Shown here piece by piece: positions 1,421 through 45,349 of a DNA stretch of 64,000 nt. This stretch comes from Bacteroidota bacterium. Its GTDB lineage: Bacteria; Bacteroidota; Bacteroidia; Flavobacteriales; Flavobacteriaceae. The stretch is taken from contig JAHJTN010000012.1 in NCBI GenBank assembly GCA_018829465.1, positions 186,001-250,000 on the forward strand, read 5' to 3'. Made by a program: the position numbers and the translations under genes. Every line of letters begins with the position of its first letter. Within the stretch, counting starts at the first letter, position 1. The notes under the pieces are model-generated. The model saw only the letters and a program-made list of their open reading frames with translations. It was not told where the DNA came from and made no database searches.

Positions 1421-4411
1421 CTAAAACAAATACCGTAAGCCAAACTGAAACTGTCTGGGGGGGCCGGCATTTTTTTGTACAATCCTTCCGGACGAACGCG
1501 GTTCGGTCTGAATCTGGTTGCTCTGCGTGGCGTTGTTACTGAACCCGCTCAGGTTTTGCGCATTGAACACATTAAAAACATTGGCGCTAAATTCCAATTT
1601 GTTGCTCAAAAAATTCAGGTTGTACAAAACCGACACATCAAAGGTATTGGACCACGGCAAACGGTCGTTGTTTCTATTTTCACCCGGATAGCGGTCGCTG
1701 TTGCCCACAAAAGCATCGCCAAAAGACGAACCGTCGCCATTCAAATCGGCCGTGCCAAACTCAGCAGCATCCGGTGTGCGGTTGATGGGCTGCCCGCTTT
1801 GGATAAGCCCCGCCAAGGTCAAGGTCAAATTGTCAACCGGATAATAATTGAAAATCGCGTTGATGATATGTGTGCGGTCGTTGATGGACGGACCCCATTC
1901 GTTGCCAAAATTATTCCCGTCGGATGCCCTGAAATTGATATCTTCTGTGTTGTTTTCCAAACTCGACAGCGTGTAGTTGATGCGGTAACCGTAATCATCC
2001 TCGCCGCGGTCTTTCTGAAGGTTCAGACTCATCGCATAATAGCGTGAAGAGCCTTCGGTTTCGGTCATCACCACGTTTCTTGCCACACCGGTAACCGTTT
2101 GCCCGTTGATGGTCGCGCTGTTGTTGACAATCGGTATCGGGCGGGTTTGGTCGGCTTCTGCCACGGTGCGGATTTGAACATTGTTTGGGTCAACCGGAAA
2201 TGGTGCGGGCGCATTCAGGTTGCGCAACCGGAACATTTTGAACGATTGGTTGTGCACCAAGTCCACAAAAAACAACTTGTTTTTGTCCACTTGCAATTGA
2301 TAGCCCAAAGCAAACTGATGGGTGTAAGGGTTTTTGTAGCCGTTCGGGTTTAAGATGCGCCTTTCGTTGCTGAAAACGGTCTCGCGTTGCGCCTGCAAAC
2401 TCTCGGTGGAAGGTGCGTTCAGGAAGTCAACATTTTGGAGGCTCGCCGATAAGTTTCCGTTGAAGGTGATTTTGTCCAAATCGGTGCCGGCAGGCAAAAT
2501 TCCTAAATCGATAAACTCCTGCAACTGCAATCTGTAATCTGCCGTGTTGGTGTTTTGCTGCAAGGCATCGCTGTAGATCGCGTAGTTGATTTTATCGTAA
2601 AAAATACCGTACCCGCCGCGAATCGTACTTCGGTTGTCGAGTTTATAATTAAAATTAAACCGGGGCGAAATGTTGTTGTAATCGCCGTCGTCGCTGCCAC
2701 CTTTCGACAAATTGTCGTAGTCGTAACGAAGCCCGAAAGTCAGGTTGAGCCGTTCGTTGAAAGCGTATTCATCTTCCACATAAAACGAGACAATATTTTG
2801 GGTTTTGCCAAAAGAAGCTTCGCGCAATTCCACATCAAAATTGATGACTTCTACATCCGATGGCAAATCGTCAAAATTCAAATTGCTGCCCAAACCGCTT
2901 GCCGCCAACTGATCCATTTGTGTTGGGTTGAGCTTGACGCGCCAGTTTCCGTTCACGTTGCCGCCACCCAACAGGCTATGGTCGCCGCTGATAAAGCCAA
3001 AACCGGTTTTGAAGGTGTGCTTTTTGGTATAAAACTTGAATTTTTGTTGAAATTGATAGGTGTTTTCCGTGGCATCAAACACAAAACCCGGATGTCCCAA
3101 CACGGCGATGGTTTCTTCACTCGGGTTCAAAACAGTGACTTGCGGGTCATTTGGATTTTCAGGCCTTCCGAAGTTCCACCGAAAACGGGAATATTGCAAG
3201 TTGGTTTGCGAACTGAACCAATCGCCTGTATAATCATTTTTTAGGGCAATATTGATCGAATTCCGGTCTTGAAAATTGCCGGCAGACGGAAATTGCGTAC
3301 CGCCTTCGAGCCCGCCACCTTGCCGTTCGATGGTCACATCGCCCACATTGGCCCGCAAGGACGATCGCAACCGGCTTGACCATTGGTGGTCAATTTTTGC
3401 CGAATAATAGGTGAAAGTGTTTTCACCCCTCACGGATTCGTTCACACCCAAATCGGGCGAGGTCAGTAAATTGTCTTTTTTGTCGATGGTGTGTTCCACA
3501 TTCAAAAAGAAGAATGTTTTGTCTTTGACAATAGGCCCGCCGATGGCAAAACCTTGTTGATAGCGTTGAAAGCCGTCTTTCACCTGATTACCCGAGAGGT
3601 CGCGTTGTGCGAACTTGCTTTTCCCGTCGATGTCCGGACCGGGGCGGGTGACAAAAAACACTTCGCCGGTCAGCTCGTTGCTCCCCGATTTGGTGGTGAT
3701 GTTGATTACGCCGTTATTGGTGAGCCCGAATTCGGCGGAATAATTGTTGGTCAACACGGTGATGTTGCGCGTAAAACCGACCGGAATGGCAAAACGCTGT
3801 CCGCCCAAAAAGCGTTCGTTGTTGTCCATACCGTCAATGAGGTAACTGGTAAACAGAGAATTGGCCCCATTGATGCTCACATTCGGCGCTTCGGAGAAAA
3901 AGCCGGTGGCTTGCGACACGTTAGGCAAACGATACAAAACCCGGGTGATGTCCCTGCCTTCTATGGGCAGTTCCTGAATTTCTTTGTTGGTCAATTCGAA
4001 GGAAACCTCTGCGTCTTTCCGGTTGATTTGCGCCGAGGTATTTCCCGTCAAAACAATCTCATTCAAAGTAACTTCGGATGCAACCGCCGGGAGCAGGAAA
4101 ATTTGAATGGTCCGGTCCTGGTTGGATCGCAAATCAAAAATTTCGGATACACTCTCAGCGTATTCACCAAAGGCATCGATATTGACTTGATAGTTGTTGT
4201 TTGTCGGCACACTGTAAAAAACCGCTTTTCCGTCAGCATTTGTTTGCTGAAGTGCTTCGAAACCCCGACTGGCGTTGTTGAGCTTGACCGATACATTTCC
4301 TACGGGTTGATTGGTTTTGTAGTCAATCACCAAAACGGTCACGTCTTCTTGAGCATAGGCAAAAAAGCCCGATAAAAGTAATATGAGTATAAATAAATTT
4401 TTCATTTTCAT
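1421..4411 (-). CDS. TonB-dependent outer-membrane receptor, Oar-like
   Basis: A 996-residue outer-membrane protein. A signal peptide ends near residue 20 (FAYA-Q). A carboxypeptidase-regulatory-like beta-sandwich follows (about 22-110), then a plug domain (about 125-235) with NKEIQELPIEGRDITRVLYR and NGANSLFTSYLIDGMDNNE, and a long beta-barrel with a typical C-terminal aromatic (QFGLRYLF). This layout matches Oar-like TonB-dependent receptors of Bacteroidota, which take up large or scarce substrates using TonB energy. No SusD-like partner is adjacent; instead an ABC solute-binding lipoprotein follows on the same strand. The substrate cannot be told from sequence. Two in-frame ATGs (codons 1 and 3) are possible starts. 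Confidence 0.9.
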   Translation of the reverse strand: MKMKNLFILILLLSGFFAYAQEDVTVLVIDYKTNQPVGNVSVKLNNASRGFEALQQTNADGKAVFYSVPTNNNYQVNIDAFGEYAESVSEIFDLRSNQDRTIQIFLLPAVASEVTLNEIVLTGNTSAQINRKDAEVSFELTNKEIQELPIEGRDITRVLYRLPNVSQATGFFSEAPNVSINGANSLFTSYLIDGMDNNERFLGGQRFAIPVGFTRNITVLTNNYSAEFGLTNNGVINITTKSGSNELTGEVFFVTRPGPDIDGKSKFAQRDLSGNQVKDGFQRYQQGFAIGGPIVKDKTFFFLNVEHTIDKKDNLLTSPDLGVNESVRGENTFTYYSAKIDHQWSSRLRSSLRANVGDVTIERQGGGLEGGTQFPSAGNFQDRNSINIALKNDYTGDWFSSQTNLQYSRFRWNFGRPENPNDPQVTVLNPSEETIAVLGHPGFVFDATENTYQFQQKFKFYTKKHTFKTGFGFISGDHSLLGGGNVNGNWRVKLNPTQMDQLAASGLGSNLNFDDLPSDVEVINFDVELREASFGKTQNIVSFYVEDEYAFNERLNLTFGLRYDYDNLSKGGSDDGDYNNISPRFNFNYKLDNRSTIRGGYGIFYDKINYAIYSDALQQNTNTADYRLQLQEFIDLGILPAGTDLDKITFNGNLSASLQNVDFLNAPSTESLQAQRETVFSNERRILNPNGYKNPYTHQFALGYQLQVDKNKLFFVDLVHNQSFKMFRLRNLNAPAPFPVDPNNVQIRTVAEADQTRPIPIVNNSATINGQTVTGVARNVVMTETEGSSRYYAMSLNLQKDRGEDDYGYRINYTLSSLENNTEDINFRASDGNNFGNEWGPSINDRTHIINAIFNYYPVDNLTLTLAGLIQSGQPINRTPDAAEFGTADLNGDGSSFGDAFVGNSDRYPGENRNNDRLPWSNTFDVSVLYNLNFLSNKLEFSANVFNVFNAQNLSGFSNNATQSNQIQTEPRSSGRIVQKNAGPPRQFQFGLRYLF

Positions 4412-43122: not shown

Positions 43123-43458
43123 TTATTTGCCACCCAACATTTGGAGCTCGTTAACCACGATTTCTGTGAAGTAGCGTTTTGCGCCGTTTTTGTCTTCATA
43201 GTTGCGGTAGGTGATTTTACCGTTTACGGCAATTTCTTTTCCTTTGGTGAGAAACTTTTCAATCACATCGGCGGTTTTGCCCCAAGCCACCAGGTTGTGC
43301 CACTGTGTTTCTGTGACTTTTTCGCCGGCTTGGTTTTTGTAGGTCTCGTTGGTAGCCAAAGAGAATTTTGCCAATTTTTTTCCCGATTCAAGGGTTACAA
43401 TTTCAGGATCGTTGCCTAGGTTTCCGATGAGCTGTACGCTGTTTCTTAAAGTACTCAT
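43123..43458 (-). CDS. ssb: Single-stranded DNA-binding protein (short form)
   Basis: A 111-residue SSB consisting of one OB fold: NSVQLIGNLGNDPEIVTLES (about 6-25), KLAKFSLATNETYKN, TQWHNLVAWGKTADVIEKFL and GKEIAVNGKITYRNYEDKNG. It ends at NELQMLGGK and lacks the flexible linker and acidic tip (typically ending DDDIPF) that normally recruits repair and replication proteins. This suggests a specialised or secondary SSB. The ATG at 43458 is preferred over one 15 codons upstream. Confidence 0.9.
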   Translation of the reverse strand: MSTLRNSVQLIGNLGNDPEIVTLESGKKLAKFSLATNETYKNQAGEKVTETQWHNLVAWGKTADVIEKFLTKGKEIAVNGKITYRNYEDKNGAKRYFTEIVVNELQMLGGK

Positions 43459-43567
43459 GATAAAAAAATTTAAAGTTAATACATCTGTTTTGGGTTTGTT
43501 CAAAAACCACGATGCAAAGTAAAGAGCTGCAAATCAGCGTATTTGGTTTTTAAGCAATTACTTTCAT

Positions 43568-43852: not shown

Positions 43853-43884
43853 AAAGGTGGTAATAAGTGGATGTAGCACATTTT
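43853..43884. repeat. Left imperfect inverted repeat of TIR cassette
   Basis: This 32-bp stretch matches the complement of 44833-44864 at about 20 positions, including an unbroken TGTAGCAC and the AAAGG and TTTT ends. It ends one base before the TIR gene's ATG. Confidence 0.5.
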
Positions 43885-43885
43885 G

Positions 43886-44824
43886 ATGAAAAAACTGCAA
43901 AAAATAGAAATTATCAATTTGATTGGAAGAGAACTTCAAAACCGAATGAAGTTTGTAGAAATTGATGGCTATTTTGAAAGTTACGGAATTCAAACTAATC
44001 ACCAGCCAACATATAATAGCAAATATGTTTATGTTCAAGAAGTTCTACCAAAAGTAAAAGATGAGATTATACTAGAGATAGCATCAGAATTAGGTATTGA
44101 ACATCCAGCGGTTTCACAAATTCCAATTATAAAAGAAAGTGAAGCTACATTTTGGAAACCCGGACATTTTAAGCTTTTTATTAGTCATTTAGCTAGTTTC
44201 AAAAAGACAATTGGAATTCTAAAAAAAGAACTGGAGAAATACGGAATTTCTTCTTTTGTTGCTCACGAAGACATCGAGCCGACAAAAGAGTGGCAAGATG
44301 AAATTGAAAAAGGATTATTCTCTATGGATGCACTTTGTGCAGTTCTTATGCCTGGATTTAAAGACAGTAATTGGACTGACCAAGAAGTTGGAGTTGCTAT
44401 TGGAAGAAATGTTTTAATAATTCCAATTCGAAAAGAACTTGACCCTTAGGGATTCATTGGAAAATTTCAAGGATTTCAAGCTGTTGGTAAGAATGTTGGA
44501 CAAGTTGCCGAAGGAATTTTTGAGATAATATCAACCAACATTAAGACAAAAACAAAATATTTAAATACTCTTGTTGAATTGATTTTACTTTCAAACACTG
44601 CAAATCAAGCGATTGAAAGACTTAATGCATTGGAAAAGATTAAAGATTTACCCAAAGAAAAAGTTGAATATTTACAAGATAAAATAGTGGAGAACGAGAA
44701 CCTAAAAGAAACAAGGTTTTTGAATCCATTTAATAAAATAGCTCGGAAATACGAACTTGAAGGTTTGAGTTTAAAATCATTCGAAAAAGAGAAAGAAGAA
44801 GATTATGATGATTTACCATTTTAA
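43886..44824 (+). pseudogene. TIR-domain protein interrupted by one in-frame amber codon
   Basis: One frame of 312 codons encodes a TIR-domain protein of the kind found in bacterial anti-phage defence, with a single TAG at codon 188. An N-terminal region (about 1-92) precedes the TIR domain: HFKLFISH (strand A, about 94-101), ISSFVAHEDIEPTKEWQDEI (about 121-140, the expected site of the catalytic Glu), LCAVLMPGFKDSNWTDQEVG and VLIIPIRKELDP. After the TAG the frame continues GFIGKFQGFQAVGKN, where homologues usually read a Tyr before GFI. The remaining 124 codons are open and end in EKEEDYDDLPF. One base change (TAT or TAC to TAG) explains it. The truncated 187-residue product lacks the end of the TIR domain. 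Base composition is more AT-rich than the neighbours. Confidence 0.8.
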
Positions 44825-44832
44825 TAAAAAAA

Positions 44833-44864
44833 AACGTGCTACAACACCCCGTATCACCCTTTGC
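44833..44864. repeat. Right imperfect inverted repeat of TIR cassette
   Basis: AAAACGTGCTACAACACC and the following bases to 44864 are the inverted counterpart of 43853-43884. It starts 8 nt after the TIR gene stop, so the two repeats hug the gene. The gap from here to 45001 has no convincing gene. Confidence 0.5.
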
Positions 44865-45001
44865 ATGGATATGAATGATTCAAAAATTTGCGTTTTTTTG
44901 CTAACTTTACGACTCAACCGAAAGTACCCGACGTTTGATACACTACAAGGCATAAGCAAAAACAGTAAAAACAGCAACAGTCCTCCTACAAAATTGTAAT
45001 C

Positions 45002-45349
45002 ATGGAAAAAAACTGTCCGGAATGTGGAGAAAAAATCATCGGTCGCAGCGATAAGAAATTCTGTAGCGACTACTGTCGCAATGCCTACCACAACCGCGCC
45101 GGAAACGACCAAAAAAACCTGATTCGCAACACCAATTACCGCTTGCGAAAAAATTTTCACATCCTGCAAACCCTCAATCGCGAAGGCAAAACCAAAGTGT
45201 CGCGCACCAAACTGCTCGAAAAAGGTTTCGATTTTGAATACATCACCAACCGCTATACCACCAAGGCAGGCACTACCTATTACTTTTGCTACAACCAAGG
45301 CTATTTGCCCTTAGACAACGATTACTATATGCTCGTTCGCCGAGATTAA
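45002..45349 (+). CDS. Small zinc-ribbon protein of unknown function
   Basis: A 115-residue protein starting with a four-cysteine zinc ribbon (CPECGEKIIGRSDKKFC with a second pair CSDYC, about residues 5-26), followed by RNAYHNRAGNDQ and a helical basic segment, then a strand-rich tail (FEYITNRYTTKAGTTYYFC and YYMLVRRD). It resembles DUF2116-type zinc-ribbon proteins. The fold suggests nucleic-acid or protein binding; there is no enzyme motif. Its stop codon overlaps the convergent dnaE stop by 4 nt. Confidence 0.75.
   Translation: MEKNCPECGEKIIGRSDKKFCSDYCRNAYHNRAGNDQKNLIRNTNYRLRKNFHILQTLNREGKTKVSRTKLLEKGFDFEYITNRYTTKAGTTYYFCYNQGYLPLDNDYYMLVRRD

Follow-up and report, generated by a model that had tools for sequence, protein, structure and literature searches.

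A TIR-domain gene with an in-frame amber codon is probably a stray cassette of an integron-like platform of Flavobacteriaceae

The interrupted TIR-domain gene

The window, a 64,000-nucleotide stretch of a Flavobacteriaceae genome, contains a gene for a TIR-domain protein that is interrupted by a single amber codon. The gene and its parts are as follows.

43886..44824, + strand: TIR-domain gene, 312 codons and a terminal stop, broken once by an amber codon
44447..44449, + strand: in-frame TAG, codon 188; tyrosine in 12 of 12 aligned relatives
44177..44470, + strand: TIR domain (residues 98-195), PF13676, 48.8 bits against a cut-off of 28; the invariant Glu of W-T/C-DQE is residue 167

Translation gives 312 codons with one interruption, in agreement with the original prediction of a frame open but for the TAG at 44447-44449. 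The two sides had been taken for a single TIR protein. This was confirmed by the PF13676 (TIR_2) match, which in the read-through frame passes codon 188 and reaches residue 195, and by relatives of 51-97% identity, which can be aligned across both halves of the broken gene.

The protein consists of an N-terminal helical part, the TIR_2 domain and a C-terminal helical part. The TAG falls inside the TIR_2 domain, which is thus not intact in the window copy; the part before the stop scores 47.8 bits, compared with 48.8 bits for the read-through frame. A product ending at the stop would retain the N-terminal helices, the bulk of the TIR domain and Glu167 but lack the last part of that domain and the whole C-terminal part; it is probably inactive. 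Structure prediction of the TIR domain gave a low pLDDT of 35-45 over residues 123-201.

Residue 188 is tyrosine in all 12 aligned copies, which range from Flavobacteriaceae to Sulfurimonas and Kerfeldbacteria, and it sits in a conserved PYGF-G-K-Q motif. The stop is therefore a lone derived change, and the tyrosine codon from which it was proposed to derive is the one found in the relatives. The whole genome carries the same single TAG at this codon.

The protein shares the TIR domain and its invariant Glu with the TIR_2 proteins Thoeris ThsB and retron-TIR. It differs from them in having its own N- and C-terminal helical domains, in scoring far below their cut-offs (28.5 bits against 220 for the NCBIfam Thoeris ThsB model ThcB4; 37 bits against 600 for retron-TIR, over the TIR part only) and in having no partner: neither ThsA nor any other conserved partner gene accompanies what is a one-gene cassette. 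The viral contigs and phage records searched contain no relative of the gene. A relative of 50% identity, annotated only as a TIR-domain protein, is present on the Klebsiella plasmids NZ_CP118040.1 and NZ_CP129796.1.

Age and cause of the stop

The closest copy, 97% identical in amino acid sequence, is that of Maribacter sp. MMG018 (dN = 0.011, dS = 0.198). When the two are compared, dN/dS is 0.054 upstream of the stop and 0.056 downstream. Equal values on both sides mean that the nonsense change is recent, as the original prediction had argued from the open downstream frame, or that it is a sequencing error. Of the changes that could be polarised on the branch of the window copy, 13 are synonymous and 4 nonsynonymous; 10 differences were left unpolarised. 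A simple Poisson calculation from these counts places the stop roughly in the last 15-20% of the branch, assuming that it abolished function.

An error of sequencing or assembly, with the gene intact in the organism, would explain the equal constraint on both halves, and it would involve only a single base of a draft genome in 55 contigs. Nevertheless it is unlikely, because substitution errors are uncommon in a consensus of ordinary depth and because other copies of the cassette are broken too. Three of the 12 Flavobacteriaceae copies are interrupted, each in a different way. Besides the window copy, one (L019) has an insertion and further decay, and that of Flavivirga (L021:5001-5938) is one base short in a run of A, a contraction that may reflect a phase-like change, pseudogenisation or faulty assembly. 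A phase-like on/off mutation had been offered as an alternative for the window copy and is rejected: the change is a single substitution in a non-repetitive stretch, which also rules out frame-shifting.

Purifying selection of equal strength beyond the stop would be expected as well if the amber codon were read through, by suppression or recoding, so that the full protein is made. This is very improbable. Infernal and ARAGORN detected 37 tRNA genes in the fetched genome stretches, none with the CUA anticodon of an amber suppressor, which leaves the suppressor tRNA of the original prediction without a candidate. TAG terminates 8 of the 41 window ORFs of at least 200 amino acids and is thus an ordinary stop in this host, so that recoding was rejected. 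The relatives all have a sense codon at the site, meaning that there is no conserved readthrough element, and the constraint is accounted for by the recency of the change.

Ends and mobility of the TIR unit

The gene lies between two ends that are inverted matches of each other, in a locus arranged as follows.

43123..43503, - strand: ssb, left neighbour (PF00436)
43870..43879, no strand: left cassette end GATGTAGCAC (in relatives GTTGTAGCAC); similarity to relatives starts here or a few bases inside; inverted match to 44836-44845
44836..44845, no strand: right cassette end GTGCTACAAC, R''-like; conserved in four relatives (L011 from Maribacter, L012, L013, and L020 from Aurantibacter); similarity stops here or a few bases past
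44842..44967, + strand: degenerate attC-like site; 10.1 bits with covariance model R1, E 0.12 in 1.6 kb with filters off; placed by its position after the R''-like end
45002..45349, + strand: gene for a small zinc-ribbon protein, right neighbour; adjoins ssb without the cassette in a same-genus genome (L033)

When the unit is compared with 11 Flavobacteriaceae copies, DNA similarity starts between 43863 and 43886 and stops between 44824 and 44854; beyond these limits the flanking DNA is unrelated in all of the genomes. The TIR proteins of the window and Maribacter are 97% identical, compared with 65% for the DnaE proteins of the two hosts. In the same-genus genome, ssb and the zinc-ribbon gene are adjacent and the cassette is absent. 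No target-site duplication was seen at the unit.

The left end has the same architecture as the cassette ends in the arrays described below. The attC-like site beside the window gene is degenerate: it is not significant by itself (about 10 bits), and its simple fold is unremarkable (z 0.24). The cassette reading therefore rests on the ends and on the relatives. In seven of these, an imperfect palindrome of about 125 bp follows the right end directly, 14-19 bp past the TIR stop codon, and in three a second palindrome ends directly before the left end. The Aurantibacter TIR gene occupies the first cassette position at an attI-like junction, which adjoins an apparent remnant of the 3' end of a recombinase gene. 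Just upstream of this array junction are two near-identical tandem ORFs of 84 amino acids with a GIY-YIG-type look (L020:3500-3754 and 3846-4100).

The TIR start codon is 7 bp inside the left end, so that the unit does not bring its own promoter, and the 390 bp upstream of the gene contain no Bacteroidetes-type -7 element (TAnnTTTG). The original prediction had read the stop as fresh pseudogenisation of a costly defence gene. The recent nonsense change stands; the defence role and its cost are possible, and neither is favoured by the low Thoeris and retron-TIR scores, the missing partner or the missing promoter. Loss of an active defence gene driven by its cost would agree with the TIR domain and its invariant Glu and with the different ways in which the three Flavobacteriaceae copies are broken. 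It is a possibility that we regard as somewhat doubtful, since no defence activity or partner is known, the protein falls below every defence-system cut-off, and silent promoterless cassettes may decay in any case. With no consensus element upstream, lack of expression would account for the decay just as well as cost.

The TIR gene is thus very probably a horizontally acquired cassette of a Flavobacteriaceae integron-like platform, one that is found singly between ssb and the zinc-ribbon gene instead of in an array and that recently suffered a nonsense mutation. Cost-driven loss is compatible with this explanation, only the cause being different. The cassette would have inserted at a secondary site, where, judging from the missing consensus element only, it may be little expressed or not at all, so that the stop would be tolerated. 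Taken by itself, the stop codon is unremarkable: either a nonsense mutation of recent date or an error, in a stray cassette that has no promoter.

attC-like hairpin sites and cassette arrays

The hairpin derived from 17 of these palindromic sites has an outer stem of CAAC/GTTG, an asymmetric spacer (3 and 6 nucleotides), an inner stem of 13 pairs and unpaired bases on the 3' side. Of the cells in its 17 pairs, 98.6% are paired, and eight of the pairs covary. All 32 changes observed in the pairs are two-sided, none one-sided. G-T pairs are absent, as expected for folded DNA rather than RNA. In the controls, sliding alignments were 21-40% paired, and shuffles never reached the observed percentage. 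No attC-like family in Rfam was matched.

A covariance model of the attC-like site, R1, detects 96 sites in 109 kb of fetched Polaribacter marinus contigs. Of 72 Flavobacteriaceae genomes drawn from across the genera, 63 contain sites, which are less frequent elsewhere in the Bacteroidota (44 of 198 genomes across the phylum); site counts per genome in the Flavobacteriaceae survey are to be read as "at least". The array of the window's own organism is divided across contig ends. Matches to the attC-like sites, at 82% and 75% identity, occur on the Tenacibaculum finnmarkense plasmids CP116298.1 and CP116296.1 (L225 and others), so that cassettes may travel on plasmids.

The arrays are strictly oriented. 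Among 255 sites there is no locus of mixed orientation, and 172 of 185 longest ORFs run along the array direction. The cassettes mostly hold a single gene, with a median of 667 bp between sites. Set against the integron R boxes RYYYAAC and GTTRRRY, the AAC/GTT core of the sites is nearly invariant, and the outer bases often give GTTGGC, GTTGTA or GTTAGC, which depart from RRRY. The two ends of one cassette are complementary at four of four positions in 126 of 137 cassettes (mean 3.86). For the two sides of a single site the mean is just 1.52, and for shuffled pairs it is 1.46. Ends that match within a cassette, together with site sides that do not, are what recombination of cassettes at a G/TT-like point leaves in the sequence.

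Alternatively, the TIR unit might be a small transposon, or an element of the MITE type, mobilised by a transposase, and the hairpins unrelated repeats. Its 10-bp inverted ends, its occurrence as a lone copy and the failure of the hairpin body to accompany the gene (see below) would suit such an element. However, the ends vary between cassettes yet match within each, the hairpins adjoin the ends exactly and form same-orientation arrays beside a recombinase gene, and no target-site duplication was seen. A transposon origin is accordingly quite improbable, and the cassette reading is retained. As a genome-wide repeat, GTTGTAGCAC is not enriched in the window's own genome (5 occurrences, compared with 9 for the reversed control).

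The array recombinase and the attI-like junction

A gene for a tyrosine recombinase of 277-610 amino acids adjoins the arrays in the genomes examined. It is situated upstream of the cassettes and co-directional with them in 13 genomes and is divergent from the array in one other (G201). In the window's own genome the array recombinase is encoded on the minus strand at G000:C50:2705-4477, and a MNT-HEPN (HepT-like) toxin-antitoxin pair lies directly behind it (L134:1980-2610, minus strand).

The nearest solved structures are XerA, an archaeal Xer and the Vibrio cholerae IntI (VchIntIA; PDB 2a3v, E 9e-39). The IntI model TIGR02249 gives the array recombinase about 215 bits, compared with a cut-off of 265, and the same model matches in all 14 control genomes. 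Because TIGR02249 by itself does not separate the array recombinase from XerC/D, the assignment was based on the association with arrays and on a phylogenetic tree. The Polaribacter protein scores 220.6 with the NCBIfam XerA model, whose cut-off is 220. The array recombinases have the catalytic fold of XerA, XerC and XerD, but they sit beside cassette arrays and form a separate group in the tree, split from the flavobacterial Xer proteins with a support of 100/100.

The KDR and HxLRH motifs are 58-59 residues apart in 16 array recombinases and in one homologue on a Chryseobacterium plasmid; in IntI1 they are 100 apart. The shortfall of about 42 residues indicates that the IntI-specific insertion is missing. 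This insertion has been described as essential for integrons (PMC8138268, PMC9668308).

Many of the array recombinases have one to three N-terminal domains of about 80 amino acids, which no Pfam family matches and which, as a guess only, resemble the HARP domain. In the window genus and Flavobacterium (L134, L135, L136) the protein is 590-592 amino acids long, with apparently three such repeats before the catalytic part. The Flavobacterium arrays behind the 592-residue recombinase (L136, G206:C2) score just about 19-43 bits with R1 and seem to have a second type of site that goes with the long recombinase.

The right end of the first cassette has its complement 30-130 bp past the recombinase stop codon in 11 of the 13 loci, commonly preceded by (T)ATAACTA or TTTACTA. 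Judged by sequence, this junction is attI-like.

The platform can be pictured as an IntI/XerA-related tyrosine recombinase gene, co-directional with the cassettes, an attI-like junction within about 130 bp of it, and a downstream array of mostly single-gene cassettes separated by attC-like hairpin sites of about 125 bp. The recombinase would act on the folded sites as single-stranded DNA.

Separation of gene and hairpin body

An integron cassette includes its attC site. In the platform, TIR genes share 89-95% identity between genomes, but the bodies of the sites behind them share just 55-75%, and the background for random site bodies compared between genomes is 64.7 +/- 7.2%. The blocks of similarity stop in the right end for all TIR copies. 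Judged from these alignments, gene and hairpin body of the TIR cassette have been separated repeatedly, and the body did not travel with the gene. This comparison covers essentially one gene family.

The main alternative is that the bodies were replaced by gene conversion inside each genome. It has limited support, in that site bodies within a genome are only slightly more alike (69.9%) than those of different genomes (64.7%).

Relationship to integrons

The platform resembles integrons and chromosomal super-integrons, with their IntI, attI and attC arrays, in several respects. The cassettes are single-gene and point the same way, the hairpin sites have AAC/GTT cores, a spacer and extrahelical bases, the complementary ends are specific to each cassette, an attI-like junction lies beside a related recombinase, and the small genes are varied and mostly of unknown function. 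It differs in the recombinase, which is without the roughly 42 residues that hold the IntI-specific insertion and in many cases has one to three N-terminal domains of about 80 residues; in the integrase pointing the same way as the cassettes; in an R core that often departs from GTTRRRY; and, in the TIR family, in the hairpin body not being carried with the gene. Archaeal integrons likewise have attI directly downstream of the integrase gene and mostly hypothetical genes, but for their IntIs the presence of the IntI-specific domain, which the platform recombinase lacks, has been reported (PMC9668308).

Of the defining properties of integrons, a cassette array with structured sites, an adjoining IntI-related recombinase and a junction of attI type can be recognized in the sequence, while the IntI-specific insertion and an attC carried with the gene are absent. 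Because two defining properties are absent, the platform is called integron-like and is not filed as an integron. No prior description of it was found in open-access papers.

Tentatively, and with slightly less than even confidence, we propose that most Flavobacteriaceae carry an unrecognised integron-like class, in places of super-integron size, whose recombinase is without the IntI-specific domain. Exchange would take place at both R boxes, so that the gene moves with short matched ends and the hairpin bodies stay behind. Such a reaction differs from the known integron reaction.

The finding lies in the platform context and not in the stop codon. Standard integron models, applied to Bacteroidetes in published surveys, yielded only lone integrases and a single complete integron, that of Salinibacter (PMC9024848). 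The R1 site model instead finds arrays in most of the Flavobacteriaceae genera sampled. Flavobacteriaceae are among the main polymer degraders of the sea, and the platform, if active, would be a major route of gene capture hidden by current models. It would directly test the need for the IntI-specific insertion in recombining folded sites, and it would offer a way into the old puzzle that attC sites are host-specific and yet cassettes travel.
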